From Rhodanobacteraceae bacterium (GTDB lineage: Bacteria > Pseudomonadota > Gammaproteobacteria > Xanthomonadales > Rhodanobacteraceae), in contig JAEUPP010000050.1 of assembly GCA_016790075.1 (NCBI GenBank), positions 1-35,807 of the forward strand: a DNA stretch of 35,807 bases, read 5' to 3'. The position numbers and the translations under genes are program-made. The notes under the pieces were generated by a model. That model was given only the letters and a program-made list of their open reading frames with translations. It was not told the DNA's origin and did no database searches. Shown in pieces: positions 18,895 to 33,776 of the stretch. Position 1 is the first letter of the stretch. Each line of letters begins with the position of its first letter.

Positions 18895-19485
18895 TCAGTG
18901 TTCGGACAGGAATCCTTGCTCAAGTCCGTCGAGCGCTTCCTGGCCTAGCCTTGCGAGGTCGGGTTTGCCGTCTTTTTCGTACCAGTAGCGCATCGTTGCG
19001 CGGATGACACCGATTGCGGCGCCGGCCATCAGGCGGGCACGGCGCTCGGAGGCGGCGCCGCGACCGAAGCGGCGGTGGAATGTGGCGGCCATCGCCGTCT
19101 CCCAGTCACGGTCGATCTCGTGCTCGCGCGCAGCGAGCGCAGGTACCGAATCGACCAGGCGCTGCTGCGCCAGAATTGACACGCGGTTGGCCGAGTATTC
19201 ATGTGCGAAGGTCGCGCAGATCGCGCGCAGGCCGTCGACTGGGTTGGGCGAGCGGCCGACCCCGTCCAGCAGTGCGAGGAAGCGTTCGAGACGCTCGCTA
19301 CGGTGTGGAAACGCGAGCGCTTCCTTGTTCTCGAAATAGCGGAAGAAGGTGCGCCGGCTCACTCCAGCGTCGGCACAGATCTCGTCTATGGTCGTCTGCT
19401 CGAAGCCCTGGCTGTGGAAGCGGCGGTTCGCTGCGCTGACCAGCGCTTGTCGCACGGCGGCCTTCTTGGCTTCTCGCAGTGGCAT
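18895..19485 (-). CDS. TetR-family transcriptional regulator, likely of the PUFA operon
   Basis: This 196-residue protein has an N-terminal TetR DNA-binding domain: TTIDEICADAGVSRRTFFRYF (residues 31-51) is the helix-turn-helix with the usual TIDEI, AGVS and TFFRYF elements. The C-terminal ligand and dimer domain is poorly conserved, as is usual. The start MPLREAKKAAV at 19485 has GGAG upstream; the open frame continues to 19812 but runs antisense through pfaD and is not used. The gene is divergent from pfaD with a 46-bp gap that holds an imperfect palindrome, the standard layout for a local repressor. The effector may be a fatty acid or acyl-CoA, by inference only. Confidence 0.9.
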   Translation of the reverse strand: MPLREAKKAAVRQALVSAANRRFHSQGFEQTTIDEICADAGVSRRTFFRYFENKEALAFPHRSERLERFLALLDGVGRSPNPVDGLRAICATFAHEYSANRVSILAQQRLVDSVPALAAREHEIDRDWETAMAATFHRRFGRGAASERRARLMAGAAIGVIRATMRYWYEKDGKPDLARLGQEALDGLEQGFLSEH

Positions 19486-19502
19486 TTCTGCTCCAGCAGG
19501 GC

Positions 19503-19541
19503 TATAACGGCGGCCCACAAAGTGCCACTGAGTGCCAGTTT
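19503..19541 (+). promoter_or_regulatory. pfaD promoter -10 and candidate TetR operator
   Basis: TATAAC at 19503-19508 matches the -10 consensus in 5 of 6 bases; no clear -35 is seen. Just downstream is an imperfect palindrome, AAAGTGCCA (19519-19527), CTGAG, TGCCAGTTT (19533-19541), with 7 of 9 positions symmetric. A repressor bound there would cover about +5 to +27 of the pfaD transcript. The right half overlaps the GTG assigned as the pfaD start. Confidence 0.45.
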
Positions 19542-21163
19542 TGGCTAGTGTCCCCCTGGTTACCCCTCCCGCGTCGGCGCAGTGGCGCGGCGCCGCGCCG
19601 GTGTTCGCGCCGGCTGAACTTGCGGGCGCCTGCGCCCAGGTGCGCCATACCGCGGTCGTCATTCGTGATGATCGCAATGGCCGGCTCGGCCTTGGGCTTG
19701 ACGGCACGCTGGTCGCTGCCGGCGGGAGCGATGCGTGGCCGGTGCTCGGCATGTTGCCGCCGCTGTATCCGGAGTGGCTAGGCGACCGCACGTTCAACGA
19801 GACACATGGCACGCGTTTCCCTTATGTCGCCGGTGCTATGGCAAACGGCATCGCCACGGCCAGGCTCGTGATCGAAATGGCGCGTATGGGCGGCCTTGGT
19901 TTCTTTGGCGCCGCCGGCCTGTCGCTGGCGCGCGTGGAGGCGGCAGTCGACGAACTGGACCGCGAGCTCGGTCCGCAGGCGCTGCCCTGGGGTGCAAACC
20001 TGATCCATAGCCCAGGTGAACCCGCGATCGAAGATGCGGTCGCGGACCTCTTTATCCGGCGTGGCGTGTGCTGCGTCGAAGCCTCGGCCTTCATGGGCCT
20101 GACCCCGGCGATCGTGCGCTACGCGGCAAGTGGCCTCCGGGTCGACAGCGCTGGCACCATCCAGCGCCGGCATCGCGTTCTGGCCAAGGTCTCGCGCGAG
20201 GAGGTGGCCAAGCAGTTCATGGCGCCTATGCCGGGCGCGATACTCGATGCGCTGGTCGCACGCGGCCAGCTCACGCGCGCCGAAGCCGAGCTCGCCACGC
20301 GCGTGCCGCTGGCGGAAGACATCACGTGTGAAGCCGATTCCGGCGGCCACACCGACAACCGGCCGCTGGCCGCGCTGCTGCCGACCATCATGGCGCTGCG
20401 CGATCGCATGCAGGCCGCACAGCGCTATCCGCGGCCGATCCGCGTCGGTGCCGCAGGCGGCCTTGGCACGCCGGGTGCGCTCGCGTCTGCCTTTGCGCTC
20501 GGTGCGGCCTATGTGCAGACCGGCTCGGTGAACCAGGCTTGTGTGGAATCAGGTCTCGGTGCCGGCGCGCGCGCGATGCTGGCGCAAGCCTCGATGGCCG
20601 ATGTGATCATGGCGCCGGCAGCCGACATGTTCGAGCTGGGCGTCGAAGTGCAGGTGCTGCGTCGCGGCACGATGTTCGCGATCCGCGCGAAGAAGCTCTA
20701 CGAGGCCTACCGCGCGTATCCCTCGCTGGAAGCTGTGCCGGTCGCCGAGCGGACGAAGATCGAGAAGGAGATGCTGCGGGCCAGCTTCGAGCAGGCCTGG
20801 GCCTCGACACGTGCGTTCTGGTCCTCGCGTGATCCCTCCCAGGTAGTCCGCGCCGAGTCCGATCCCAAACACCGTATGGCGCTGGTATTCCGCTCCTACC
20901 TGGGGCTCTCCAGCCGCTGGGCGATCGACGGCGTGAGCGAGCGGCTGACCGATTACCAGATCTGGTGCGGCCCCGCGATGGGCGCGTTCAACACCTGGGC
21001 TACGGACAGTTTTCTGCAAACGCCGGCCGGGCGCACGGTGGTGCAGGTTGCGTTGAACCTGCTTGAAGGTGCTGCGGTGCTCACCCGCGCGCAGCAGCTG
21101 CGCACCTTCGGTTTGCCAATCCCGGCGTCCGCATTCGATTTCCGCCCGAGGCCCCTCACATGA
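19532..21163 (+). CDS. pfaD: PfaD: FMN-dependent enoyl reductase of PUFA synthase
   Basis: This 543-residue protein is the trans-acting enoyl reductase that reduces selected double bonds during PUFA chain building. It is a TIM-barrel FMN enzyme of the nitronate monooxygenase-like group. Family motifs include TRFPYVAGAMANGIAT, GGLGFFGAAGLS, the EADSGGHTDNRP signature (267-278), and GAAGGLGTPGALASAFALGA leading to YVQTGSVNQA for FMN phosphate binding. Length is normal. The GTG at 19532 follows an in-frame TGA directly, so the start cannot lie upstream. No ribosome site is visible, so translation may be leader-poor or start at a later codon. The stop overlaps the pfaA ATG by 4 nt (ATGA), indicating coupled translation. 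Confidence 0.95.
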   Translation: MPVLASVPLVTPPASAQWRGAAPVFAPAELAGACAQVRHTAVVIRDDRNGRLGLGLDGTLVAAGGSDAWPVLGMLPPLYPEWLGDRTFNETHGTRFPYVAGAMANGIATARLVIEMARMGGLGFFGAAGLSLARVEAAVDELDRELGPQALPWGANLIHSPGEPAIEDAVADLFIRRGVCCVEASAFMGLTPAIVRYAASGLRVDSAGTIQRRHRVLAKVSREEVAKQFMAPMPGAILDALVARGQLTRAEAELATRVPLAEDITCEADSGGHTDNRPLAALLPTIMALRDRMQAAQRYPRPIRVGAAGGLGTPGALASAFALGAAYVQTGSVNQACVESGLGAGARAMLAQASMADVIMAPAADMFELGVEVQVLRRGTMFAIRAKKLYEAYRAYPSLEAVPVAERTKIEKEMLRASFEQAWASTRAFWSSRDPSQVVRAESDPKHRMALVFRSYLGLSSRWAIDGVSERLTDYQIWCGPAMGAFNTWATDSFLQTPAGRTVVQVALNLLEGAAVLTRAQQLRTFGLPIPASAFDFRPRPLT

Positions 21164-24100
21164 GTTCCCTGCAGCGCCAGCCGATCGCCATCGTCGGTGT
21201 CAGCGCGATCTTTCCTGGTTCGCAGGATGCGAACGGCTTCTGGCGCGACATCCTCGCCGGCAAGGATCTGTTGAGCGACGTGCCGGCTACACACTGGCGC
21301 ATCGACGACTACTACGATGCGGACCCGGCGGCGCCCGACAAGACCTACGCCCGCCGCGGCGGTTTTCTTGCACCAATGGAATTCGATGCGCTGGGCTGGG
21401 GCATTCCGCCTGCGACGATCCCGGCCACCGACACTTCGCAACTGCTTGCACTGATTGCAGCGCGCGCCGTACTTGAAGACGCCGCGCGCGAGCAGTTCGA
21501 GACCATGGACCGCTCGCGCATCTCGGTGATCCTGGGGGTCACCAGCGCGCAGGAGCTGCTGTTTTCACTGGTATCGCGCCTGCAGCGCCCGATCTGGCAG
21601 AAGGCGCTGCGCGAGATGGGCCTGCCCGAAGACGACGTGCAGGAGGCCTGCGAGCGTATCGCCGCGCACTACGTGCCGTGGCAGGAAGCGTCGTTCCCGG
21701 GGCTGCTGGGCAATGTCGTCGCCGGGCGTATCGCCAACCGGCTCGGCCTGGGTGGCACCAACTGCGTGACCGACGCGGCCTGTGCCTCGAGTTTTTCCGC
21801 GATCCAGATGGCGGTGAACGAGCTGCAACTGGGTGATTCCGATCTCGTGATCAGTGGCGGCGTCGACACACTCAACGACATCTTCATGTACATGTGTTTC
21901 TCCAAGACGCCGGCATTGTCCCCTAGCGGTGATTGCCGGCCGTTCTCGGACCAGGCCGACGGCACGATGCTGGGCGAAGGGCTGGGCATGGTTGCGTTAA
22001 AGCGGCTCGCCGATGCGGAGCGCGACGGCGACCGCATCTATGCGCTGCTGCGCGGCGTTGGTACCTCGTCGGACGGCCGCGCGAAGTCGGTGTACGCGCC
22101 AGTCGCTGCAGGGCAGGCGGTCGCATTGCGCCGCGCCTATGTGCAGGCGGGCTTCGGCCCCGACACCGTCGAACTGGTCGAGGCGCATGGTACCGGCACC
22201 AAGGCGGGTGATGCTGCCGAGTTCGAGGGCTTGCGCAGCGTCTATGCCGAGGCAGATGCGGCACGCACGCAGTGGTGCGCGCTGGGCTCGGTGAAAAGCC
22301 AGATCGGCCATACCAAGGCGGCCGCCGGCGCCGCCGGTCTGTTCAAGGCGGTGATGGCGCTGCACCACAAAGTGCTGCCGCCAACGATCAAGGCCGACAT
22401 TCCCAATCCCAGGCTTGACCTGCCGCGAAGCCCGTTCTATCTCAACAGCTCGGCGCGGCCGTGGATCCGCGGCGCGTCACACCCGCGGCGTGCCGCGGTC
22501 AGCGCGTTTGGTTTCGGCGGCTCGAACTTCCATCTTGCGCTGGAGGAATACACCGGCCCGGCACCGCGGGCGCAGCGGCTTGCCACGCAGTCGCATGAAC
22601 TCGTCCCGCTGAGCGCGGCCAGTGCCGCGGCGATGGTCGAGCGGATCGCGCAGCTGCGGCGATCCAGCGCAAGCAATGTCCCTTTGGCTGCGCTTGCACG
22701 CAGTGCGCGGGAAGCGTTCGACCATGGCGCTGCGGTGCGCCTCGCCCTTGTCGCGGCCAGCGCTGCCGAGCTCGATGCAAGGCTTGACCTGGCACAGAAA
22801 AAGATCAGCACCGACCCGGCGCAGCCATTCCAGCTGGCAGACGGCAGCAGCTACGGCCTGGGCGCGCCTGACGGCGCGCTGGCGCTGCTGTTTCCGGGGC
22901 AGGGCAGTCAGTACATCGGCATGGGAGCTGCCGCGGCGATGCAGTTCGACGCGGCGCGCGCGGTATGGGATCGCGCTGCCGATCTGCGTATCCACGAGAC
23001 CGTGTTCGGCAATTCGGCCGACGCGCTGATGCGCACCGAAAACGCCCAGCCGGCGCTCGGCCTTGCGTCGATGGCGCTGCTTGCCGTGTTGCGTGGGCTC
23101 GGAGTCGAGGGCGCGATGGCCGCCGGCCACAGCTTCGGCGAGATCGTCGCCCTGCACGCTGCGGGAGTGTTCGCCGAAGCTGATGCCCTGCGTATTGCCC
23201 GACGCCGCGGTGAACTCATGCGCGACGCGGCGAGCAATGGCAGCGGCGCAATGTGCGCGCTGGCGTGCTCGATCGAGCGCGCGCGGGAGTTGATCGGCCC
23301 TGCGCTCGCCATCGCCAACCACAACGCGCCCGAACAAGTGGTTGTTTCGGGACCGGCGGAGGCCATTGCTGCGCTCCAGACCCAGGGGCTTGCGGCGCAG
23401 CGCCTGCCGGTCGATGCCGCCTTCCATTCTGCCCAGGTCGCGTCTGCATGCGCGCCGTTCGGCGAGTTCCTCGCCGGTGTCGAATTCGCCGCACCGCAAA
23501 TGCCGGTCTATGCCAATGCACACGCAGCACCCTACACCGGCGATGCCGTTGCGCTGCTCGCGCAGCAAATTGCGCAGCCGGTGCGTTTCGTGGAAACGAT
23601 TGAAGCGATGTACGCCGCGGGCGCGCGCTGCTTTGTCGAGGTCGGTCCGGGCACGGTGCTCAAGGGCCTGGTCGGCGCCATCCTCGGTACGCGCGCGCAC
23701 CGCGCGATAGCCCTCGATCGCAAGGGCAGGTCAGACATCGAGCCACTGCTCGCAGGACTGGCGCAGCTCGTAGCCGCAGGCCATGTGACCAAGGTGTCGG
23801 CGTTGTTCGACGACGTGCGTGTTCCGCCGCCGCTGGCGGCCTACAAACACGGTGTCGCGATCAGCGGCAGCAACGTCGGCAAGCCCTATCCGCCGGCAGA
23901 TCCTTCGTGCCTGCCCACTCCCAATCCGCCGCGTGCGGAGCCTGCAGCTGTTGTCGAGGTGCTCACCGTGAAAGAAGAATCGCCGCTGTCACCAGCCTGG
24001 CTCGCCGCGTTCCAGGAAGCGCAGCAGCAGACCGCGAATGCACATGCTGCTTACCAGCGCGCACTCAGCGACAGCCACACGCAGTACCTCAAGCTGGCCG

Positions 24101-27100
24101 AAAGTGCGATCAACGGCCTCACCGCGTTGCTTGGTGCAGCTCCCGCGCCCGTAGCGCCGGCTTCAGGCGCAGCTGCAGCCCTGCCGATGGTGGCGCCGCC
24201 GCCAGTTGCGCCGATACCGGTTGCGGCGGTGGTCCCGGCGCCGGTCGCAGCACCGGCTGCTGTCACCGTTGTGGCACCGGTCGCTGCGCCTGCGCCAGGC
24301 ACCGACCTGGCGGCGCTGCTCCTTGCCGTCGTCGCGGAAAAGACCGGCTACCCCGCCGAGATGATCAGCCTTGACATGGACCTCGAAGCCGATCTCGGCG
24401 TTGACTCGATCAAGCGGGTGGAAATTCTCGCCGCGGTGCAAGAGCAAGGCGCGGTCGGCGCGCAGATCGATCGCACGAAGATGGGTGGGATGCATACCTT
24501 GCGGCAGATCGCCGAATACCTGCAGGGCGGGGCCGCGACGGGTGCAATCGCCGCCCCGCAGGCTGACGCCGAAGACGTTGCTGGGGTCTTGCTGGGTGTG
24601 GTCGCCGACAAGACCGGTTATCCGGTCGAGATGCTGGATCTGGCGATGGACATAGAGGCCGACCTCGGCATCGACTCGATCAAGCGGGTGGAAATCCTCG
24701 CCGCAATGAACGAACGCCTGCCCGGACTGGCGAAGGACCGTGCGCCACCGGCGGCGCTGCACACGCTGGCCGATATCGTGGCCTACCTCGGCGCGGTCCC
24801 GATCCCTACCGCCGCACGGCCCGATATCCCTGCACCACGCGGGAAGCCGCTGCGCCGCGCCGAGCTTGGCCGTTTCGTGCTGGAGCTCCTGCCCGCACCA
24901 GCCGCCGGCTTTGCCATGCCTGGGCTGATCGATGGCGAGCCGGTATTCGTGTTCGGTGCGGTTGGCCTGGACGCCGTGGTCGCAGCGATGCTGCGCAGCA
25001 GCGGTGTTGATGCTCACGCGGTGGATGCCTTGCCCGACAGTGCAAGGCGCTGCATCTATCTGGGCGGCCTGCGTCAGGTCGCGGACGAGGCGCAGGCCAT
25101 GGCGGTGAACCGCGAGGCGTTTGCCGTCGCGCAGCGCCTGGCCAGCGCCGAGGACGTTTTGTTCGTGACTGTGCAGGACACCGGCGGCCATTTCGGCTTG
25201 CGCAACACCGATGCGTGCCGCGCGTGGCTGGCGGGTCTGCCCGCACTGGTCAAGACAGCAGCGCTGGAATGGCCGCGCGCGACGCTGAAGTCGATCGACC
25301 TGGAGCGCGGCACGCGCGACGACGCGGCGCTGGCCGAAGCCATCGCTGGCGAGCTGTTGCGCGGCGGCGGTGAGATCGAAGTGGCTTTGCCCGCTGCAGG
25401 CGGGCGCTTCACGCTCAAGAGCATTGCGCGCGCGGCGCGCCCGTCGCTCAGCGCGATCAATGCTGGCGATGTCGTCGTCGTCTCCGGCGGCGCACGGGGT
25501 GTGACGGCGGCCTGCATCGTGGAGTGGGCCAAGCAGTGCAAGGCGCGGTTCGTTCTGCTTGGGCGTACCCCGCTGCGCGAGGAGCCCACCGATTGTGCCG
25601 GTGTCAGCGACGAGGCACAGCTCAAGCGCATCGTGCTCGCGCGCGGTGCGGCGCTGACGCCGAACGAACTGTCGCAGGAAGTCGACCGCATTCTTGGCGC
25701 GCGCGAGATCCGCGCCACGCTTGCCGCGATCCAGGCCCAGGGCGCCTCCGCGCGTTACGAGTCGGTCGCGGTGGATGATGCCGCTGCGCTGGCCGCAACC
25801 CTGGATCGCGTGCGCCGGGACTGGGGGGCGATCGCCGCTGTGGTGCATGCTGCGGGCGTGCTGGCCGACCGGCGCATCGGCGACAAGACACTGGCGCAGT
25901 TCGACCGTGTGTTCGGCACCAAGGTCGGCGGGCTGCGCGCCTTGCTAGCGGCGACAGCGGCGGACCCACTGAAGCTGTTATGTGTGTTCTCGTCAGTTTC
26001 GGCGCGTTGTGGCAATACCGGGCAAAGCGATTACGCGATGGCCAACGAAGTGCTGGCCAAGGTCGTCGCAGCCGAGGCGCGCAGGCGCCCCGGGCTGCGG
26101 GCGAAGTCGCTGGGCTGGGGCCCGTGGGAAGGCGGAATGGTCACACCGGCGCTGAAGGCGCGTTTTGCCGAACTGGGTGTGCCGATGATCCCGCTGGAGG
26201 TCGGTGCGCGGATGTTCGCCGACGAAATGGACGACGCGCGTGCCAGCGATATCGAGCTCGTGCTCGGCGGCGAACCGCGCGGCGAAGCACTGCTGATGGA
26301 CGGCGCCGAGGCGCGTGTGCAGAGCGTGGAGCTTGTTGTCTCGCGCGCCAGCCACGCCTTCCTCGAAGGCCATGCAGTGAAAGGCACGCCGGTCGTGCCA
26401 GTGGTACTTGTGGCCGAATGGATGGCGCGCGCAGCGCGTAGCTTCCGTCCTGGTCTGGCGCTGGCCGCACTGCACGAGCTCAAGGTGCTCAAGGGCATAC
26501 GGCTAGGCGGATTCGACCATGGCGGAGATCGCTGCCGCATCGAGGCAACGCCGTTGCCCAGCGAACGCGGCGTGCAGCTCCTGATGACCGTACGCGATGC
26601 ACGCGGGGCGCTGAATTACAGTGCGCGCGCGGAATTGCTGCCGGAGCCACCCAAGGCCAGGCGCGAGACGCCCGGGCTGGCCCTGGACCGGTGGAGCGGC
26701 GAAAGCATCTATCCGGAGTTGCTGTTCCATCGCAAGCAGTTCGAGCTGATCGATGCGGTGCACGGTATCTCCGACCAGGGCATAGGGGCGACGGTGCGCG
26801 GCGTCGACGCCGCGGGCTGGGACGGCGAGAGCTGGGCGCTCGACGTCGCTGCCCTGGACGGTGGCTTGCAGGTCGCCGCGCTGCACGGCCGGCGCATGCT
26901 CGGTGGCCAGACGCTGCCGACGGCAATCGCCGAGCTGCGGCACTTCGGGGCGAATCCGATCACGGGCCCGATCACCGCTACGGCCTACCTGCGCAAGGTG
27001 GGGACTAGCGACACGACTACCGATATCGTGCTGACTGACAAGAGCGGTAGCCGCTACGCCGAGATGCTCGGCGTGCAGAACCACGCGCTGCCGAACGGGG

Positions 27101-27105
27101 CCTGA
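21160..27105 (+). CDS. pfaA: PfaA: PUFA synthase KS-MAT-ACP-ACP-KR-DH
   Basis: This 1981-residue iterative synthase protein has these domains in order. Ketosynthase (1-450): DAACASS with Cys208, His343 in EAHGTGT and His384 in IGHTKAAAG. Malonyl transferase (about 575-870): FPGQGSQ at 578 and GHSFGE with Ser658. A Pro/Ala-rich linker (about 990-1045). Two acyl carrier domains: LGVDSIKR with Ser1083 and LGIDSIKR with Ser1173, 90 residues apart. Ketoreductase (about 1430-1715): SGGARG at 1442 and SDYAMAN with Tyr1625. A C-terminal PKS-type dehydratase-like hot-dog region (about 1720-1981): SHAFLEGH with His1738. All expected catalytic residues are present. Two ACPs is few: characterised PUFA synthases usually carry more. 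It overlaps pfaD by 4 nt and is followed 4 nt later by pfaC. Confidence 0.96.
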   Translation: MSSLQRQPIAIVGVSAIFPGSQDANGFWRDILAGKDLLSDVPATHWRIDDYYDADPAAPDKTYARRGGFLAPMEFDALGWGIPPATIPATDTSQLLALIAARAVLEDAAREQFETMDRSRISVILGVTSAQELLFSLVSRLQRPIWQKALREMGLPEDDVQEACERIAAHYVPWQEASFPGLLGNVVAGRIANRLGLGGTNCVTDAACASSFSAIQMAVNELQLGDSDLVISGGVDTLNDIFMYMCFSKTPALSPSGDCRPFSDQADGTMLGEGLGMVALKRLADAERDGDRIYALLRGVGTSSDGRAKSVYAPVAAGQAVALRRAYVQAGFGPDTVELVEAHGTGTKAGDAAEFEGLRSVYAEADAARTQWCALGSVKSQIGHTKAAAGAAGLFKAVMALHHKVLPPTIKADIPNPRLDLPRSPFYLNSSARPWIRGASHPRRAAVSAFGFGGSNFHLALEEYTGPAPRAQRLATQSHELVPLSAASAAAMVERIAQLRRSSASNVPLAALARSAREAFDHGAAVRLALVAASAAELDARLDLAQKKISTDPAQPFQLADGSSYGLGAPDGALALLFPGQGSQYIGMGAAAAMQFDAARAVWDRAADLRIHETVFGNSADALMRTENAQPALGLASMALLAVLRGLGVEGAMAAGHSFGEIVALHAAGVFAEADALRIARRRGELMRDAASNGSGAMCALACSIERARELIGPALAIANHNAPEQVVVSGPAEAIAALQTQGLAAQRLPVDAAFHSAQVASACAPFGEFLAGVEFAAPQMPVYANAHAAPYTGDAVALLAQQIAQPVRFVETIEAMYAAGARCFVEVGPGTVLKGLVGAILGTRAHRAIALDRKGRSDIEPLLAGLAQLVAAGHVTKVSALFDDVRVPPPLAAYKHGVAISGSNVGKPYPPADPSCLPTPNPPRAEPAAVVEVLTVKEESPLSPAWLAAFQEAQQQTANAHAAYQRALSDSHTQYLKLAESAINGLTALLGAAPAPVAPASGAAAALPMVAPPPVAPIPVAAVVPAPVAAPAAVTVVAPVAAPAPGTDLAALLLAVVAEKTGYPAEMISLDMDLEADLGVDSIKRVEILAAVQEQGAVGAQIDRTKMGGMHTLRQIAEYLQGGAATGAIAAPQADAEDVAGVLLGVVADKTGYPVEMLDLAMDIEADLGIDSIKRVEILAAMNERLPGLAKDRAPPAALHTLADIVAYLGAVPIPTAARPDIPAPRGKPLRRAELGRFVLELLPAPAAGFAMPGLIDGEPVFVFGAVGLDAVVAAMLRSSGVDAHAVDALPDSARRCIYLGGLRQVADEAQAMAVNREAFAVAQRLASAEDVLFVTVQDTGGHFGLRNTDACRAWLAGLPALVKTAALEWPRATLKSIDLERGTRDDAALAEAIAGELLRGGGEIEVALPAAGGRFTLKSIARAARPSLSAINAGDVVVVSGGARGVTAACIVEWAKQCKARFVLLGRTPLREEPTDCAGVSDEAQLKRIVLARGAALTPNELSQEVDRILGAREIRATLAAIQAQGASARYESVAVDDAAALAATLDRVRRDWGAIAAVVHAAGVLADRRIGDKTLAQFDRVFGTKVGGLRALLAATAADPLKLLCVFSSVSARCGNTGQSDYAMANEVLAKVVAAEARRRPGLRAKSLGWGPWEGGMVTPALKARFAELGVPMIPLEVGARMFADEMDDARASDIELVLGGEPRGEALLMDGAEARVQSVELVVSRASHAFLEGHAVKGTPVVPVVLVAEWMARAARSFRPGLALAALHELKVLKGIRLGGFDHGGDRCRIEATPLPSERGVQLLMTVRDARGALNYSARAELLPEPPKARRETPGLALDRWSGESIYPELLFHRKQFELIDAVHGISDQGIGATVRGVDAAGWDGESWALDVAALDGGLQVAALHGRRMLGGQTLPTAIAELRHFGANPITGPITATAYLRKVGTSDTTTDIVLTDKSGSRYAEMLGVQNHALPNGA

Positions 27106-27109
27106 TCGC

Positions 27110-30100
27110 GTGTTCGAGCCGATTGCCATCGTCGGGCGCGCCTGCGTATTGCCTGGGGCCTTGAGTCCGGCGGCGCTATGGGACGCAGTGGTCAAGGGAC
27201 GCGATCTGGTTTCGCGCGTGCCTGCAGATCGCTGGCGTCTCGCGCCCGAGCTGGCGCTGTGCGCACCCGACGCGCCACAGCCGGACCGCACCTGGTCGGA
27301 TCGCGGCGGCTATGTGGAAGGCTTCGAGTCGATCTGGAATCCGCAGGGCTTCGCGGTCGCGGCTGCCGAGCTCGATGGGCTGGACCCGCTGGTGCACTGG
27401 ACGCTGCATTGCGCACGCGAAGCGCTGCGCGAGACCCGCGTGGCAGGCCGCGTGGGAGCAATCTTCGGCAACCTCGGCTTTCCGACCACGCAGATGGCCG
27501 CGTTCTGCGAGCAGGTGTGGACAGGCGAGGGGGAGGTCGACCCGCGCAACCGCTTCATGAGCGGCGGGACTGCGGCCATGCTGGAGCGTGCGCTAGCACT
27601 GCAGGCCGGCAGTTTTTGCCTGGACGCCGCCTGTGCCTCGTCGCTGTACGCGATCAAGCTCGCCTGCGATGCCCTGCACGACCGCCGCGCCGACGTGATG
27701 CTCGCCGGAGCGGTACAGCGTGCTGATGATCTATTTCTCCACATTGGCTTCTGTGCGCTCGGCGCGCTCAGCAAGTCCGGGCGTTCGCGGCCCTTTCATC
27801 GCGAGGCGGATGGATTGGTGCCGGCCGAAGGTGCAGCGTTCCTGGCGCTCAAGCGCCTGGCCGATGCACGCCGCGATGGCGACACCATTCATGGCGTGAT
27901 TCGCGGCGTCGGGCTGTCGAACGATGGGCGCGGCAAAGGTTTCCTGGCGCCGAGCGAAGAGGGGCAGCAGCGTGCAATCCGCAGCGCGTATGTGATCTCG
28001 GGTATTGACCCTGCCCAGGTTTCGCTGCTGGAGTGCCATGCCACCGGCACGCCGGTAGGCGACGCCACCGAATTGCGCAGCAGCGCGAATGTGTTCGCGC
28101 AGACGCACAACCTGCCGATAGGTTCGCTCAAGTCCAACCTCGGTCACCTCATCACCGTTGCAGGCGCTGCGGGCCTGATCAAGCTGCTCGAAGCGATGCG
28201 CGCCGGGGTACGTCCACCGACCTTGCATTGCGCCGATCCCAATCCGGCCCTGCAGCAGACGCCATTTCGCCTGTTGCGCGAAGCTGAGCCCTGGGCCTGC
28301 GACGGCGCGCGCATCGCGGCCATCTCCGCCTTCGGTTTCGGCGGCAACAATGCGCATCTGATCGTTTCGCAAGACGAAGAACGCATCAGTGGCGAGCGCG
28401 CTGCTGCCAGTGCGCGTCCGGTCGCGATCTGTCCGGTCGCGATCGTGGGCATAGGGTTGAAGGTCGCCGACGCGCCAGATCGCGCGGCGTTCGCGCATGC
28501 GCTATTCGATGAACGTGTGTCCGGCGAAGAGACGGGTGCAGCGCGGGAAGGCCGTATGGACTGCGTCGAACTCGACATGGACGGCCTGCGCTTTCCGCCA
28601 CGAGACCTTGAACAGGCGCTACCGCAGCAGCTGGCGCTGCTCGCGGCGGCGCGCGAGGCGCTGGCCGAGACGCTGCCGCTGCCACGCGAGCGCAGCGCGG
28701 CGCTGATCGGCCTGGAGCCCGACCCGGAAGTCGCGCGCCACGGCGCGCGCTGGCGGCTCACCAACGGCCGCAACGACGCTTGGGCCGCGCGCGCGCGCGC
28801 CGCACTGGTGCCGCCGCTCGAGGCCGCCGCCGTGTTGGGTTCCATGCCCAATATTCCGGCCAACCGTCTGAGTTCGCAGTTCGACCTCGCCGGCCCGTCG
28901 TTCACGCTGCAGGCGGGTGCCGCATCCGGATCCCAGGCGCTGCGCATCGCCGCGCGGGGGTTGGCGTGCGGCGAGCTGGATGCCGCGATCGTCGGGGCGG
29001 TCGATTTCGGCTGCGAAGCGGTACAGCGTGCGGCGAGCGACGAAGTACCCGGCGACGCGGCCGTCGCCTTGGTGCTGAAGCGGCTGGAGGATGCGGAACG
29101 CGACGGCGACCGGGTGTATGCGTTGCTGGACGACACGGCTGCTGCCGAGCCGTCGCGACTGCAGTCGCGGCTGCGGCAGCGCTTCGGTTATGCGCAGGCA
29201 ACTTTTGAATTAGTGGAAACTGCTGCGGCGGCGCTGGCTCTGCATCAGCGGCGCAACATCGACGGCAAGCCGTGGCTCAGTGCCATGCCGCGCCGCGCGG
29301 CGAATCTCCGCGAAGCCTCAGCACATCCGCGCCGCGCCGAACAGGCGGTGGCGCGATTGCACGGTTTCGCCGGGGTGGACAAGAGTTCGGTGATCACCGC
29401 ATTGAAGCAGGATCGCCGCGGTCTGGACGGCCCTGCACGCTGCGTGCTCGTTGCAACCGAAGCGTCGCTGCCGACGGTGCGGGCGCGGGCGATCGCCCAT
29501 CTGGAAACCGGCGCGCCCGCAGGCCGCGGCGTGTTCTTCCGCGCCCAGCCAATAGCCGGCCAGATCGGGTTCGCGTTTGCCGGTGCCGGTGCTTCGTACC
29601 GCGGCATGGGGCGCGAACTGCTGCTGCATCTGCCGCAACTGCACGAGTCCCTGCGCAGTCGCAGTCAGCGCCTTGCGACCGCATTAGCTTGGTCGTTTGC
29701 TGCGGATGACGCGACGCCCAGCGTGTTTGAGCAGTTGTGCGGTTCCTCGGCTCTGTCGCAATTGCATCTGGCGCTAAGCGAGGATCTTCTCGGCCTTAAG
29801 GCCGACGCCTGGCTGGGCTACTCCTCAGGTGAAACAAACGCACTGATTGCCGCGGGCGTCTGGAACGACCCCGATGCACTGATGGCGGATATGGAGTCGT
29901 CCGGCTTGCTCGAACGCGAGCTGGCTGGCCGCTTCGATCTTCTGGCGCGCAGCTGGGGCGAACCTGCGACCTGGGAATGCTGGACTGTCGCCGCGCCGCT
30001 GGATGAGGTGCGCCGCGCGTTGACTGGCCTGGATCGCGCGCACATCGCGATCATCAACGACGATGCGAGCTGCCTTGTCGCGGGTGCTGCGGCCCAGTGC

Positions 30101-33100
30101 ACCCGTGTGGTCGAACGGCTGGGTGCGGCGCGCTGCCTGCAACTGGACTATTCGCCCGTCGTGCATGTGCCGGAGCTGCACGGCGTGGAGCAAGCATGGC
30201 TGGCCGTACATCGCCGTGCGACCGCGGCGCCGCGGCATGGGCGTATCTACAGCACGGCCAGCGGACGGCCTTATACACCGGACAGCGAGGCCTGCGCACA
30301 GGCGATTCTGGCGCAGGCGGTCGACACCATCGACATCCGTGCGCTGGTCGAAAACGCCTGGAACGACGGTGTACGCGTATTCGTCGAACACGGGCCCGGA
30401 GGCACCTTCGGCCGCGCGATCCGTCATGTGCTCGGCGCGCGTGAGGCGCTGGTGGTCAGCCTCGACCGGCACGGCGACGGTATCGAGACCGTGCTCGGCG
30501 CGACTGCGGCGCTGCTCGCCGCCGGTGTGGCGGTGGATCATGCCGCGCTGGAAACCGCGCTGGCACCTGTGCCACACCTCGCACCGAAACGGCCGCGCCG
30601 CTTCGACGCCCACCCTCAGCCCGTGCGCCTTCCTCCACGCGCCGAAGCGATGCAGACGATGGCGCCTGCGCCGCGGCTGCCGCCAATTCTCGAATACACG
30701 ATGCACGAGCCTGCGGTCGTGGCATTGCCTGTTGCGACATTGCCTGTTGCCACTCTTGCACCTGGTAGACCGCAGCCTGTGCGTGCGGCGCATCCTGCGC
30801 TGGCAGGCATCCGGGCGGAACTCACGCGGCTGGCCGCGGCGCAACAGGCGTATACCGAGGCGCAGACCAGCGCGCACGCGCAGTTCCTCACCTTGCAGGC
30901 CAAAGCGAGCGAAGCCCTGTTGTGCGCCGCGCGACAGGGCGTGAGTTCGCATCTGCTGCCATTCGCCCCGTTGACGCGAGCGCTGCAGTCCAGCGACTCC
31001 GCCGCCGTGTTCGCCGGACCGACACAGCAGGCTGTGCGCTTCACGCGCGATGAGCTTATGGTCCATGCCGACGGCAACATCTCGCAGATTTTCGGCGCGG
31101 CGTTTACGGCGCAGGACGGCTTCGCGCGTCAGGTACGCATGCCGCGTCCGCCGCTGTTGCTGGCTGATCGGGTAACCGCGCTCCGGGCCGAACCGATGAG
31201 CATGGGCAAGGGCTCCATCACCACGCAGACCGATGTTGGTGCCGAGTCCTGGTATCTGCATCAGGGCCGCATGCCCGGTGGTGTGATTGTGGAAGCAGGG
31301 CAGGCCGACCTGATGCTGATCTCCTACCTCGGCGTCGATGCCCTCAATCGCGGCGAGCGCGTCTACCGTCTGCTCGGCTGTGAGCTCACCTACCACGGTG
31401 AACTGCCGCGTACCGGTGAAACGATCACCTTCGCCATCCATCTGGACGGACATGCGGCACAGGGCGACGTGCGCCTCATGTTCTTCCACTACGACTGCAT
31501 GAACGGCGACCGCAAGCAACTGACGGTCAGAAATGGCCAGGCCGGATTCTTCACCGATGCCGAACTCGCCGCTTCGGCGGGCTGCCTGTGGACGCCTGAA
31601 GGTCAGGAAGTCGTCGCCCACCCACGCCTGGACCCGCCGCGCGCGGTGAGCACACGCAGTTGCTTCGATCGCGCCGCGCTGGAGGCCTTCGCCAACGGCG
31701 ACACCCACGCCTGTTTCGGCGCCGGTTTCGAGCTCGCCCGCACGCATACGCGCAGTCCACGTATCCAGTCCGGTAACATGCTGCTGCTCGACCGTGTGAG
31801 CGCGTGCGAGCCGCGTGGCGGTCCCTGGGGACGCGGCTATCTCCGCGCCGAGCTCGACATCGATCCGTCGCGCTGGTTCTTCGACGGGCATTTCAAGAAC
31901 GATCCCTGCATGCCCGGCACACTGATGCTGGAAGGGTGCCTGCAGGCGCTGGCGTTCCATCTCGCGGCCTGCGGCTACACGCTGGAGCACGACGGCGCAC
32001 GTTTCGAGCCCGTACCGGAACTTGCCTACAAACTGCAGTGCCGCGGCCAGGTTATCCCGAGCTCGATGCTGCTGGTGACCGAAGTGTTCGTTGAGGAAAT
32101 CGTTGCCGGACCGGTGCCGACGATCTGGGCCGACCTGCTGTGCACAGTGGATGGACTGAAGGCATTTCACGCACGCCGTCTTGCACTGCGTCTGCAGCCG
32201 GATTTTCCTGCGGCAGACAGCGAAGGCCTGCTTGCCTCGGCGCTAGGCCGCCCGTCGCGTGCGTTCGGTACTCGCTACCAGCGTTTCGACGGCGCGTTGC
32301 GCGCGCCACGCCTGCCGGCACCGCCCTACCTGTGCATGAGTCGCATCGTGCGCACCGACGGTACGCCCGGAGAGATGCGCGCCGGCGTGTGCGTCGAGGC
32401 CGAATACGATGTGCCGCGCGATGCCTGGTATCTCGACGTCGCCGGTGCCGCGCCGTTCGCAATACTGCAGGAGGCCGCACTGCAACCCTGCGGCTGGTTG
32501 TCGAGCTGGGCCGGCTGCGCTCTCGCCAGCGAAGAGGAGCTGCGCTTCCGCAACCTGGACGGTCGCGGTACACAGCATTCCGAATTGCGCGGCGGCGAAA
32601 CGCTCACTACGCAAGCCGTACTCACTTCGGTTTCCGCATCAGGCGGCATGATCATCGTCGCGTTCGACGTGCGCTGCAGGGTAGGCACGCGCGAGGTCTA
32701 TACGCTGAAGACCGTGTTCGGATTCTTTCCGCGCACCGCACTGGCGGCACAGGCCGGCCTGCCGCGCAGCGAGTTCCACCAGGCGCTGCTGCAGCGCGAG
32801 CCGAACACACGGCGCGAACTCGACGAAAACTCCCTGCTGCGCATGATCGACCGCATCGACGGCGTCTGGCCTGACGCGATTCGCGCACGAAAGCGGGTCG
32901 ATGCCGGCGAATGGTTCTTCAAGGCGCATTTCTTCCAGGATCCCGTACAACCCGGTTCGCTCGGTGTACAGGCCATGCTGCAGACGCTGCAGCAGTGGCT
33001 GTGCACGGCAAACCACGCAAGCTCAGGCGCGGTGGCGCCGCTGCTCGGACGCGAGCACCTGTGGAAATACCGCGGACAGGTGCTGCCGCACCACAGCGAA

Positions 33101-33238
33101 GTGGTGATCACTCTGCAGGTGACGGAATCCGGCCCTGACTACGCCATCGCCGATGCGAGCCTGTGGGCTGACGGCGAACGGATCTACGAGGCGAGCGGGA
33201 TTGCTCTTCGCCTTCGCCATGGGCAACAAGAAGGATAA
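27110..33238 (+). CDS. pfaC: PfaC with fused PfaB-type AT: KS-CLF-AT-DH-DH
   Basis: This 2042-residue protein starts at GTG 27110, 4 nt after the pfaA stop. Domains in order: ketosynthase (1-430), with Cys175 in DAACASS, His310 in ECHATGT and His346 in NLGHLITVAG; a KS-like chain length factor (about 440-690), where the Cys position is Ala604 in QAGAASGS; an acyltransferase (about 815-1130), with GYSSGE Ser905, His1019 in PVVHVPEL, and FAGAGAS in place of FPGQGSQ; a linker; then two FabA-like dehydratases, each a pair of hot-dog folds (about 1300-1690 and 1740-2040). His1384, His1594 (FFDGHFKNDPCMPG) and His1940 (FFKAHFFQDPVQPG) are visible; the third hot dog has Asp1776 at the His position. 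In marine bacteria this AT is the separate PfaB. No acylglycerolphosphate acyltransferase domain follows the last DH. Confidence 0.95.
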   Translation: MFEPIAIVGRACVLPGALSPAALWDAVVKGRDLVSRVPADRWRLAPELALCAPDAPQPDRTWSDRGGYVEGFESIWNPQGFAVAAAELDGLDPLVHWTLHCAREALRETRVAGRVGAIFGNLGFPTTQMAAFCEQVWTGEGEVDPRNRFMSGGTAAMLERALALQAGSFCLDAACASSLYAIKLACDALHDRRADVMLAGAVQRADDLFLHIGFCALGALSKSGRSRPFHREADGLVPAEGAAFLALKRLADARRDGDTIHGVIRGVGLSNDGRGKGFLAPSEEGQQRAIRSAYVISGIDPAQVSLLECHATGTPVGDATELRSSANVFAQTHNLPIGSLKSNLGHLITVAGAAGLIKLLEAMRAGVRPPTLHCADPNPALQQTPFRLLREAEPWACDGARIAAISAFGFGGNNAHLIVSQDEERISGERAAASARPVAICPVAIVGIGLKVADAPDRAAFAHALFDERVSGEETGAAREGRMDCVELDMDGLRFPPRDLEQALPQQLALLAAAREALAETLPLPRERSAALIGLEPDPEVARHGARWRLTNGRNDAWAARARAALVPPLEAAAVLGSMPNIPANRLSSQFDLAGPSFTLQAGAASGSQALRIAARGLACGELDAAIVGAVDFGCEAVQRAASDEVPGDAAVALVLKRLEDAERDGDRVYALLDDTAAAEPSRLQSRLRQRFGYAQATFELVETAAAALALHQRRNIDGKPWLSAMPRRAANLREASAHPRRAEQAVARLHGFAGVDKSSVITALKQDRRGLDGPARCVLVATEASLPTVRARAIAHLETGAPAGRGVFFRAQPIAGQIGFAFAGAGASYRGMGRELLLHLPQLHESLRSRSQRLATALAWSFAADDATPSVFEQLCGSSALSQLHLALSEDLLGLKADAWLGYSSGETNALIAAGVWNDPDALMADMESSGLLERELAGRFDLLARSWGEPATWECWTVAAPLDEVRRALTGLDRAHIAIINDDASCLVAGAAAQCTRVVERLGAARCLQLDYSPVVHVPELHGVEQAWLAVHRRATAAPRHGRIYSTASGRPYTPDSEACAQAILAQAVDTIDIRALVENAWNDGVRVFVEHGPGGTFGRAIRHVLGAREALVVSLDRHGDGIETVLGATAALLAAGVAVDHAALETALAPVPHLAPKRPRRFDAHPQPVRLPPRAEAMQTMAPAPRLPPILEYTMHEPAVVALPVATLPVATLAPGRPQPVRAAHPALAGIRAELTRLAAAQQAYTEAQTSAHAQFLTLQAKASEALLCAARQGVSSHLLPFAPLTRALQSSDSAAVFAGPTQQAVRFTRDELMVHADGNISQIFGAAFTAQDGFARQVRMPRPPLLLADRVTALRAEPMSMGKGSITTQTDVGAESWYLHQGRMPGGVIVEAGQADLMLISYLGVDALNRGERVYRLLGCELTYHGELPRTGETITFAIHLDGHAAQGDVRLMFFHYDCMNGDRKQLTVRNGQAGFFTDAELAASAGCLWTPEGQEVVAHPRLDPPRAVSTRSCFDRAALEAFANGDTHACFGAGFELARTHTRSPRIQSGNMLLLDRVSACEPRGGPWGRGYLRAELDIDPSRWFFDGHFKNDPCMPGTLMLEGCLQALAFHLAACGYTLEHDGARFEPVPELAYKLQCRGQVIPSSMLLVTEVFVEEIVAGPVPTIWADLLCTVDGLKAFHARRLALRLQPDFPAADSEGLLASALGRPSRAFGTRYQRFDGALRAPRLPAPPYLCMSRIVRTDGTPGEMRAGVCVEAEYDVPRDAWYLDVAGAAPFAILQEAALQPCGWLSSWAGCALASEEELRFRNLDGRGTQHSELRGGETLTTQAVLTSVSASGGMIIVAFDVRCRVGTREVYTLKTVFGFFPRTALAAQAGLPRSEFHQALLQREPNTRRELDENSLLRMIDRIDGVWPDAIRARKRVDAGEWFFKAHFFQDPVQPGSLGVQAMLQTLQQWLCTANHASSGAVAPLLGREHLWKYRGQVLPHHSEVVITLQVTESGPDYAIADASLWADGERIYEASGIALRLRHGQQEG

Positions 33239-33325: not shown

Positions 33326-33776
33326 CTAGCTCGGGCAGCATCGCTGCACCGGTCGCCCCCTGCCGGGCGTTGCAGCCTGGTATGCAACTGAGCCTCGGGC
33401 AACCTCGCGCCGTCGCCTGCTCTTCAGCGTGAAGTACGCGCTTGCGCGTGTTCCAGGCTGAGCTGGAGATGCAATGCGCGACACGGGTTGCACACTGCAT
33501 CGCGCGAGCTGCCGGGGAGGTCGTTCCCGGTGGGAACGGTTGTTGCTTCAGAGCGGGCTTGACAGGGGGCAGGAGCGTTCAAGGTCGCCGCGGTGTCCCG
33601 GCTGTGTCTTATCGTGTACGGGTAAAGCACTAAACTGGCCGGGTATTCAGGGAGCGCCTGGCGAGAGCGATTCTTCGGCGCCCTTGGCAGATCGCTCAGG
33701 AATCACTTGTTGCCGTCAACAAAACAAACATCCGGCGCAGCAATTGATGCATGCAAACTCAGCACGGAAACACCAT
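33326..33776. other. Intergenic region before the DUF11-like gene
   Basis: No gene is supported in these 451 bp. They contain a short perfect hairpin (CGTTCCC-GGT-GGGAACG, 33522-33538) and a TTGACA at 33559-33564 without a matching -10. A TAAACT at 33631-33636 could be a weak -10. The region is less GC-rich toward 33720, as expected for a promoter zone of the gene at 33777. Confidence 0.35.

Follow-up and report, generated by a model that had tools for sequence, protein, structure and literature searches.

How PUFA synthases choose which double bonds stay is an open programming question, and several layouts of these synthases have been described. In marine pfaABCD clusters of the Shewanella type, PfaB is a separate protein and the enoyl reductase (ER) comes last (PMC3098273). 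The pfa1-pfa2-pfa3 clusters of Aetherobacter and Minicystis encode ER, KS-MAT-ACP-KR-DH and KS-CLF-AT-DH-DH in this order, as described in PMC8436480 and PMC6731297, the latter also giving a DH4 for Minicystis and none for Aetherobacter. The literature has described their C-terminal AGPAT as found in myxobacteria alone. Type L secondary lipid synthases combine a 5' ER with a fused pfaBC of the order KS-CLF-DH2-AT and have already been reported in the gammaproteobacterium Saccharophagus degradans (Shulse & Allen 2011, PMC3098273). The cluster of Tahibacter aquaticus DSM 21667 is likewise in print (PMC8436480, PMC13291983).

The locus analysed here lies on a 35.8-kb contig (the window; 35,807 nucleotides, the whole stretch of DNA analysed) from a host in the same genus as T. 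aquaticus (Gammaproteobacteria, Lysobacterales). It is orthologous to the T. aquaticus cluster (ER 89%) and shares its domain order, divergent TetR gene and DH3 glutamine, whereas T. aquaticus has a PKS-NRPS upstream and no such genes were found in the window. The Aetherobacter and Minicystis clusters have the same gene and domain order but are set apart, by their descriptions, by the AGPAT and the DH3 acid, and Minicystis also by DH4, which the window lacks. As in type L, by description, a 5' ER accompanies a fused pfaBC, although here the AT precedes DH2 (KS-CLF-AT-DH2). The marine enzymes are homologous and follow the same logic, but differ in their separate PfaB and final ER. The ER-first layout is already known in other bacteria; what is new is a Gln at the catalytic-acid position of DH3 in the readable Tahibacter genomes.

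Gene and domain content of the pfa cluster

Three intact, coupled plus-strand open reading frames encode proteins of 543, 1981 and 2042 amino acids (Table 1). The pfa1 and pfa2 genes overlap by 4 nt (ATGA), and 4 nt separate pfa2 from pfa3. The PfaD and PfaA profile scores of pfa1 and pfa2 exceed their cut-offs (449.25 and 1010.1 bits, respectively). Pfam found KS, MAT, two PP-binding stretches, KR and PKS_DH_N in Pfa2, the last at 24.6 bits and so under its 27-bit cut-off, and KS, AT and three FabA stretches in Pfa3. KS, MAT, ACP, KR, AT and DH motifs were all found in the two proteins; those of Pfa2 are DAACASS (205), GHSFGE (656), DLGVDSI (1078), DLGIDSI (1168), SGGARG (1442) and HAVKGTPVVP (1738). 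The CLF of Pfa3 is named by its position and missing Cys, and similar stretches occur in relatives. The locus thus combines a PfaD-family ER, a PfaA-like KS-MAT-tandem ACP-KR protein and, by Pfam, a KS-CLF with a FabA-like DH pair, the set that marks PUFA or secondary lipid synthases. In four Tahibacter relatives all three reading frames remain uninterrupted, at a dN/dS of 0.11–0.15 per gene, so this is no chance reading. The genome has one match to the PPTase family PF01648.

Table 1 Features of the pfa locus in the window.
Feature	Position	Strand	Evidence
TetR-family regulator, divergent from pfa1	18895..19485	-	PF00440, PF17754
pfa1, stand-alone enoyl reductase (PfaD family)	19532..21163	+	TIGR02814 620.6 bits; PDB PfaD 6lkc E 2.5e-156, 4yx6 E 1.2e-151
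pfa2, KS-MAT-ACP-ACP-KR-DH(PKS)	21160..27105	+	TIGR02813 1334 bits; Pfam domains; motifs
pfa3, KS-CLF-AT-DH2-DH3, stops after DH3, no AGPAT	27110..33238	+	Pfam KS, Acyl_transf_1, FabA x3; no PF01553
AT active-site motif GYSSGE, residues 903-908 of pfa3	29816..29833	+	Motif; PF00698 at residues 821-1141
Active site HFKNDPCMPGTLMLE of DH2, the first FabA-like domain, with its acid intact	31889..31933	+	Motif scan
Active site HFFQDPVQPGSLGVQ of DH3, the second FabA-like domain, with Gln1954 at the acid position (codon CAG, 32969-32971)	32927..32971	+	Alignment to FabA chains

A first-pass annotation had read the stretch from 19532 to 33238 as three coupled genes with this domain order, in a pfa1-pfa2-pfa3 rather than a marine pfaABCD layout, in a probable gammaproteobacterial host and with no AGPAT, and on all these points our analysis agrees. 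It had also placed a PfaB-type AT inside the third protein. The AT is indeed there by Pfam, but the PfaB profile TIGR02816 reached only 62.6 bits (residues 758–1095; cut-off 144.3), so the 'PfaB-type' label denotes position and weak similarity.

The Pfam scan of Pfa3 detected no AGPAT (PF01553). Among Lysobacterales, Pfa3 stops after the last DH in 10/10 frames, and the tail past DH3 is 0–4 amino acids in all nine frames other than that of the window; the ends were sought in the genomes of 29 of 80 surveyed loci and on an Azospirillum plasmid, keeping frames with a DH match above 100 bits. A C-terminal AGPAT is present outside myxobacteria too, for instance in Paenibacillus, which does not have the ER-first order. 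AGPAT is therefore not confined to myxobacteria, contrary to the printed point.

Phylogeny and distribution of the ER-first layout

In quick ER, KS1 and KS2 trees (SH-aLRT support, no bootstrap), the cluster fell in a Lysobacterales-only clade (SH-aLRT 99, 99 and 100, respectively), whose neighbours were of several groups and included Myxococcota. ER-last gammaproteobacterial rows and the PDB PfaD chains lay outside this clade. An AU test on 41 of the 116 ER rows (among them 9/12 Lysobacterales, 4/5 marine and 12/19 Myxococcota) rejected a union with the marine rows (p 0.00157), and with it a marine origin of the ER, as well as a clade of only Lysobacterales and the 12 Myxococcota (p 0.00028). 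From the KS1 set we dropped 11/100 rows whose best match was a KS2 or other PKS KS (at most 36% identity), keeping two loci (L070 and L090) that group with the KS2 outgroup; from the KS2 set, 47/100 rows that matched KS1 equally well or better were dropped, and T. aquaticus appears twice (L051 and L134). The rows cover neither hglE-type synthases nor named Aetherobacter, Minicystis or Sorangium sequences. The first-pass annotation had proposed ER and KS phylogenies, naming a place inside the marine clade or a myxobacterial host as evidence against its reading; the genes fall outside that clade and the host is no myxobacterium.

We scored layout by script in the best 80 of 572 confirmed relatives, a sample that leans to near kin. 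A pfa2-like gene follows the ER in 63/80 named loci, from seven phyla plus unassigned records; 8/80 have no nearby KS gene (seven of these are Myxococcota), the ER is last in 2/80, both Bacillota, and 7/80 were scored as other layouts, six of them mis-scored loci with a KS1 frame that overlaps the ER. A fused KS-CLF-AT gene after the ER and pfa2-like gene was found in 19 of these 80 loci (6 Pseudomonadota, including T. aquaticus, and 13 Actinomycetota) and also in Azospirillum; many other surveyed loci stop before the AT. In other Gammaproteobacteria, 7 of 18 PfaD-bearing regions are ER-first. Within Lysobacterales, the cluster occurs in at least three families, and pfa1 in 6/7 other genomes of the Tahibacter genus. 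Of the two origins initially proposed, a separate fused lineage fits the Lysobacterales-only clade, whereas a myxobacterial-type lineage is not specifically indicated by a layout found in seven phyla.

Replacement of the DH3 catalytic acid in Tahibacter

Gln1954 of DH3 aligns to the Asp of the FabA chains 2cf2, 4b0b and 4fq9, where a catalytic Asp or Glu is expected. This position is Gln in 6/6 readable Tahibacter genomes and Glu in 11/11 other Lysobacterales genomes of the lineage. Elsewhere, the scanned DH3 motifs carry Glu except for one of the two in a single locus (L261), and the same Glu-to-Gln change affects DH2 in six Streptomyces loci and one Lentzea locus; no scanned locus has Gln in both DH2 and DH3.

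Mean dN/dS in Tahibacter was 0.193 for DH3 and 0.064 for DH2 and, in other Lysobacterales, 0.238 and 0.191, from non-independent pairs, with dS near saturation in the latter group and pairs with dS of at least 1.5 (2/36 and 10/45) left out. The 15 non-independent pairs are no more than suggestive of relaxed constraint on DH3, and in relatives that keep the Glu the DH3 half likewise outpaces the DH2 half. Purifying selection on DH3 persists (0.19), so the domain may retain some function, structural or otherwise.

Proposed working and alternative readings

The reading we favour, with somewhat better than even confidence, is an iterative synthase of the PUFA ('secondary lipid') type that is complete in itself, made up of a TetR gene and pfa1-pfa2-pfa3. 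Its product would be a long-chain unsaturated acyl chain, with one of the dehydratases impaired and the AT mediating release. The MAT of Pfa2 would load malonyl units onto the two ACPs, and KS1 and the KS2-CLF pair would extend the chain. After reduction by the KR, the PKS-type DH of Pfa2 would dehydrate for full reduction by Pfa1, and the FabA-like DH2 of Pfa3 would leave double bonds through dehydration or isomerisation. DH3, its acid changed from Glu to Gln, is probably inactive or altered in Tahibacter, so fewer or otherwise placed double bonds than in EPA or DHA would be expected, and the change probably alters the lipid made. Release would probably fall to the Pfa3 AT acting as a thioesterase, or the chain be handed to host acyltransferases, without the AGPAT of Aetherobacter and Minicystis. 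A limited literature search returned no report of PUFAs in Tahibacter. More tentatively, and with chances short of even, a recurring Glu-to-Gln switch may set the double-bond pattern, Tahibacter having lost DH3 and Streptomyces and Lentzea DH2; Tahibacter would then hold a natural 'one FabA-dehydratase', AGPAT-less synthase, with AT-mediated release, for a long-chain lipid other than EPA or DHA. An acid replacement in one of two tandem dehydratases, with its mirror case in Streptomyces, offers natural variants for testing double-bond programming.

That Gln instead supports dehydration or isomerisation, leaving DH3 active and the product an ordinary LC-PUFA, is fairly unlikely. The purifying selection on DH3 would fit, as would the recurrence of the change in Streptomyces and Lentzea DH2, but nearly all other scanned DH3 motifs keep Glu, and in Emiliania FabA-like dehydratases replacing the acid with Ala abolished complementation (PMC9667614), marking the acid as essential in the dehydratases tested. 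Recent horizontal acquisition of a myxobacterial synthase whose products, like those of Aetherobacter, would be membrane lipids of the EPA/DHA type seems very unlikely. Myxobacterial synthases do share the gene order and domains, and Myxococcota MAGs are among the nearest non-Lysobacterales rows (one, L055, is the KS1 sister, SH-aLRT 87); however, in all three trees Lysobacterales form their own clade, and the spread over families, the rejected Lysobacterales–Myxococcota ER clade, the lack of AGPAT in all ten Lysobacterales frames and the replaced DH3 acid all count against it. A myxobacterial donor may lie deeper in the tree.

For T. aquaticus DSM 21667, PMC13291983 names the strain and proposes a clade IV triple hybrid, in which the synthase would supply a PKS-NRPS lipopeptide with its lipid tail. 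There, a divergent frame of 5165 aa that carries NRPS and KS domains has its near edge 9.4 kb from pfa1, and the genus is rich in NRPS/PKS. Extending this to our locus is unlikely to be right. No PKS/NRPS gene, sought within 20 kb as for clade IV, was found on the contig, but this stops 2.6 kb past pfa3 and such a gene may lie further downstream. A scan of the ten other frames in the window found no PKS/NRPS domain, and the KS matches listed for the contig belong to pfa2 and pfa3. When a 1000-aa piece of the T. aquaticus NRPS was compared with the seven other genus genomes, one of them (G002) had a close relative at 85% and the other six reached at most 41% among the matches listed, whereas six of those seven have pfa1. 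Large frames near pfa in another genome (G004) are only 34% alike, and in a further one (G007) the 16 condensation-domain matches listed, of 17, are all on a contig other than that of pfa. By sequence comparison, the genus does not conserve the PKS-NRPS that neighbours the T. aquaticus cluster as a partner of pfa, a result that bears on the printed proposal.

Regulator and upstream region

A promoter scan returned 0 promoter-like sites (1.4 in shuffles), and a terminator scan 7 terminator-like sites against 8.8 in shuffles. In six Tahibacter, a well-conserved block upstream of pfa1 reaches the first pfa1 codons; no exact inverted repeat (arms 6–10, gap 0–8) was found in this upstream region, and we therefore assign no operator to the TetR protein. 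Our script scored a divergent TetR-like gene in 7/92 loci with room upstream, missing one (G050) in which it is present at 58%. Similar TetR genes lie beside pfa in four other Tahibacter and three other Lysobacterales neighbourhoods, all that were compared (53–93% identity). The TetR-family gene likely regulates the pfa cluster, and the two are kept together while the flanks change.

Layout and precedents of the synthase cluster

The first-pass annotation had placed three synthase genes at 19532..33238, and these coordinates proved exact, with all three on the plus strand. pfa1 and pfa2 overlap by four bases, and a four-base gap separates pfa2 from pfa3. Pfam and NCBIfam back the proposed layout of ER / KS-MAT-ACP2-KR-DH / KS-CLF-AT-DH-DH, in which CLF is named by its place after the KS and by its missing Cys. 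We observed the KS Cys and His, MAT Ser, AT Ser, both ACP Ser, KR Tyr and PKS-DH motifs. An AT domain does lie within the third protein, but its assignment as PfaB-type is less secure, the PfaB match (62.6 bits) being under the curated cut-off of 144.3. Compared with their orthologues in four Tahibacter relatives, the three genes gave dN/dS of 0.11–0.15.

The 35,807-base window forms contig C47 of a draft genome of 5.6 Mb, assigned to Gammaproteobacteria, Lysobacterales, Rhodanobacteraceae, as the reading of the host as a gammaproteobacterium had anticipated. Genome G003 of the same genus is Tahibacter aquaticus DSM 21667, the 17.8-kb stretch compared with record NZ_SNZH01000009.1 being identical. 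According to PMC8436480, the pfa cluster of Minicystis shows synteny with those of T. aquaticus, Azospirillum melinis and Streptomyces; PMC13291983 counts T. aquaticus DSM 21667 among the PKS-NRPS-PUFA hybrids, and the type L clusters of PMC3098273, whose ER gene stands at the 5′ end and whose pfaBC is fused, already include a gammaproteobacterium. The cluster was correctly seen, is ordinary in kind and is partly in print already.

Features of the window, and broken copies of a second reductase in three Tahibacter genomes
Feature	Location	Strand	Description
pfa1	19532-21163	+	ER (Pfam, NCBIfam)
pfa2	21160-27105	+	KS-MAT-ACP-ACP-KR-DH (Pfam, NCBIfam)
pfa3	27110-33238	+	KS-AT-FabA-FabA (Pfam, NCBIfam); CLF from position and missing Cys
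TonB-dependent receptor	15402-17984	-	upstream of the pfa cluster
Surface-type protein, 3069 aa	2958-12167		10 Big_3_5 Ig-like stretches, DUF11 repeats, DUF5122, GEVED domain
Second DUF11 protein	1-1938
Protein without Pfam hit	33474-35198
Broken second PfaD-like reductase (L145)	G000:C53:22480-23226
Broken second PfaD-like reductase	G004:C1:3549702-3551035
Broken second PfaD-like reductase	G006:C12:18638-20020

Gene order and ancestry

ER matches were found in 14 of 61 Lysobacterales genomes searched. Seven came from the eight genus genomes, the window's own counted (G001 had none), three from other families of the order (65–67% identity) and four, at 41–50%, from longer frames that resemble enoyl reductases of trans-AT PKSs. 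A search at E 1e-40 through 398 genomes sampled from the order met the DH portion of Pfa3 in 16, one of which, G576 (36%), represents a more distant type. PfaD exceeded the cut-off in 18 of 369 genomes of the class sample, including the window's; the other 17 yielded 18 regions, of which 7 were ER-first, 5 ER-last, 5 trans-AT PKS-like and 1 too short for a call.

ER-first order had been read as a myxobacterial mark. Among the best 80 named loci of at least 572 relatives, 19 of them Myxococcota, script scoring placed ER before the KS1 gene (KS1, the KS of pfa2) in 63, which came from seven phyla and from unassigned records; 8 lacked a nearby KS gene (7 of these Myxococcota), 2 had ER last and 7 received other scores. 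Given this spread, and the ER-first order of 7 of the 18 other gammaproteobacterial regions, the arrangement is no signature of myxobacteria. A fused KS-CLF-AT turned up in 19 of the same 80 loci, from Pseudomonadota and Actinomycetota, and also in Azospirillum, many surveyed loci stopping before the AT.

Quick trees of ER (116 rows), KS1 (97 rows) and KS2, the KS of pfa3 (56 rows, T. aquaticus entered twice), recovered Tahibacter as one set (SH-aLRT 100, 100 and 99), nested in a Lysobacterales-only clade of 12, 11 and 11 rows, respectively (SH-aLRT 99, 99 and 100). ER-last gammaproteobacterial rows fell away from this clade, and the ER tree put the PfaD chains of the PDB elsewhere too; two ER-last rows of genome G064 were nearer, yet outside. 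In AU tests on 41 ER rows, with groups chosen after the first tree had been viewed, uniting 9 Lysobacterales with 4 marine rows was rejected (p-AU 0.00157), and so was a clade formed only by these 9 and by 12 of the 19 Myxococcota rows (p-AU 0.000282). The closest outsiders were mixed, comprising Myxococcota MAGs, a Pseudomonadales MAG, Acidimicrobiia and, for KS2, a planctomycete MAG, in a tree set without named Aetherobacter, Minicystis or Sorangium sequences. With neighbours so mixed, a myxobacterial donor deeper in the tree is one possibility among several.

The C terminus of Pfa3

The lack of an AGPAT domain at the Pfa3 end was borne out, a Pfam search finding no PF01553 match in the window's pfa proteins. 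Among 40 frames with a full C terminus, the tail past the last DH was 0–20 aa in 23, including all 9 from Lysobacterales, 318–379 aa in 5 (four judged to hold DH-like sequence only, and a fifth in which an acyltransferase motif could be made out by eye) and at least 592 aa in 12. PF01553 matched in all seven scanned of these 12, one match (L223, Mycobacterium) falling under the cut-off; the tails came from Azospirillum, Paenibacillus, Mycobacterium, an Acidimicrobiia MAG, a planctomycete MAG, a Myxococcota MAG and a MAG titled Pseudomonadales. The survey thus fails to bear out PMC8436480, which reports the domain as unique to terrestrial myxobacteria. Nor is its absence peculiar to Lysobacterales, because Streptomyces-type and three betaproteobacterial frames likewise lack it. 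Mycobacterium intermedium seems to carry two Pfa3-type genes, L236 (G444:C332) and L226 (G444:C155), one tail being of 716 aa and the other of 340 aa with an acyltransferase-like motif by eye.

An acid replacement in DH3

The variant of interest is a DH3 acid replacement common to the readable Tahibacter genomes, within an AGPAT-less Lysobacterales lineage. The active site of DH3, the second FabA-like domain of Pfa3, reads HFFQDPVQPGSLGVQ, and its last Gln (1954) aligns to the Asp that serves as the catalytic acid in FabA structures. A D/E to A change at the catalytic-acid site abolished complementation in PMC9667614, in accord with such a role. Gln was present in all six Tahibacter genomes with a readable DH3 (the window's and G003–G007), a count that leaves out G002, whose contig stops before DH3; G001 had no match to this Pfa3 DH stretch at E 1e-40. 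Glu occupies the position in 11 of 11 other Lysobacterales genomes of the lineage, in the distant G576 and in the remaining loci with a DH3 motif, save for locus L261, where one of the two DH3-like motifs lacks it. Six Streptomyces loci and one Lentzea locus have Gln in DH2 instead, and none of the loci scanned has it in both domains. Mean dN/dS in Tahibacter was 0.064 for DH2, the first FabA-like domain, and 0.193 for DH3 (15 pairs, six genomes), and in other Lysobacterales 0.191 and 0.238 (usable pairs numbering 34 of 36 for DH2 and 35 of 45 for DH3).

We favour iterative chain extension in which one active FabA-like dehydratase/isomerase would work beside the PKS-type DH and the ER. The chain would then be released by the AT domain, by analogy with the AT-like thioesterase of Thraustochytrium described in PMC8003026. 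The DH3 change is of experimental interest because DH2-DH3 and DH4 strongly influence product type, according to PMC6731297. Among the papers listed by searches of open-licence literature, we found none on this substitution and no lipid data for Tahibacter.

The gammaproteobacterial L261 (G064:C2) is a 1611-aa frame with two successive DH2-DH3 pairs and four FabA-like active-site motifs, Gln being in the last; its genome has a second PfaD cluster.

Surroundings of the cluster

A divergent TetR gene adjoins pfa1 in four other Tahibacter and three other Lysobacterales neighbourhoods compared, and also occurs in two Lysobacterales MAGs and two non-Lysobacterales loci; in the majority of the 92 loci with enough sequence upstream, no such gene was scored. 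Other flanks vary from species to species. T. aquaticus has a PKS-NRPS frame whose near edge is 9.4 kb off pfa1. For a 1000-aa piece of this frame, G002 alone among the matches listed has a relative at 85%, in an assembly too fragmented for judging linkage; listed matches in the remaining six genus genomes reach 41% at best. With so restricted a distribution, the PKS-NRPS is no conserved partner of pfa. It could nonetheless use the pfa lipid in T. aquaticus.

Window positions 19500-19560, around the pfa1 start, are near-identical in six Tahibacter genomes, at synonymous sites too, a pattern that may point to a regulatory element lying across the start codon. G004 carries a counterpart of the TonB-dependent receptor at 89% identity, also close to pfa; around pfa in G003, G006 and G007, nothing comparable was matched. 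A second PfaD-like reductase, probably of trans-AT PKS type judging by its similarity level, is frame-split or stop-bearing in three Tahibacter genomes, and G002:C221 carries an open copy.
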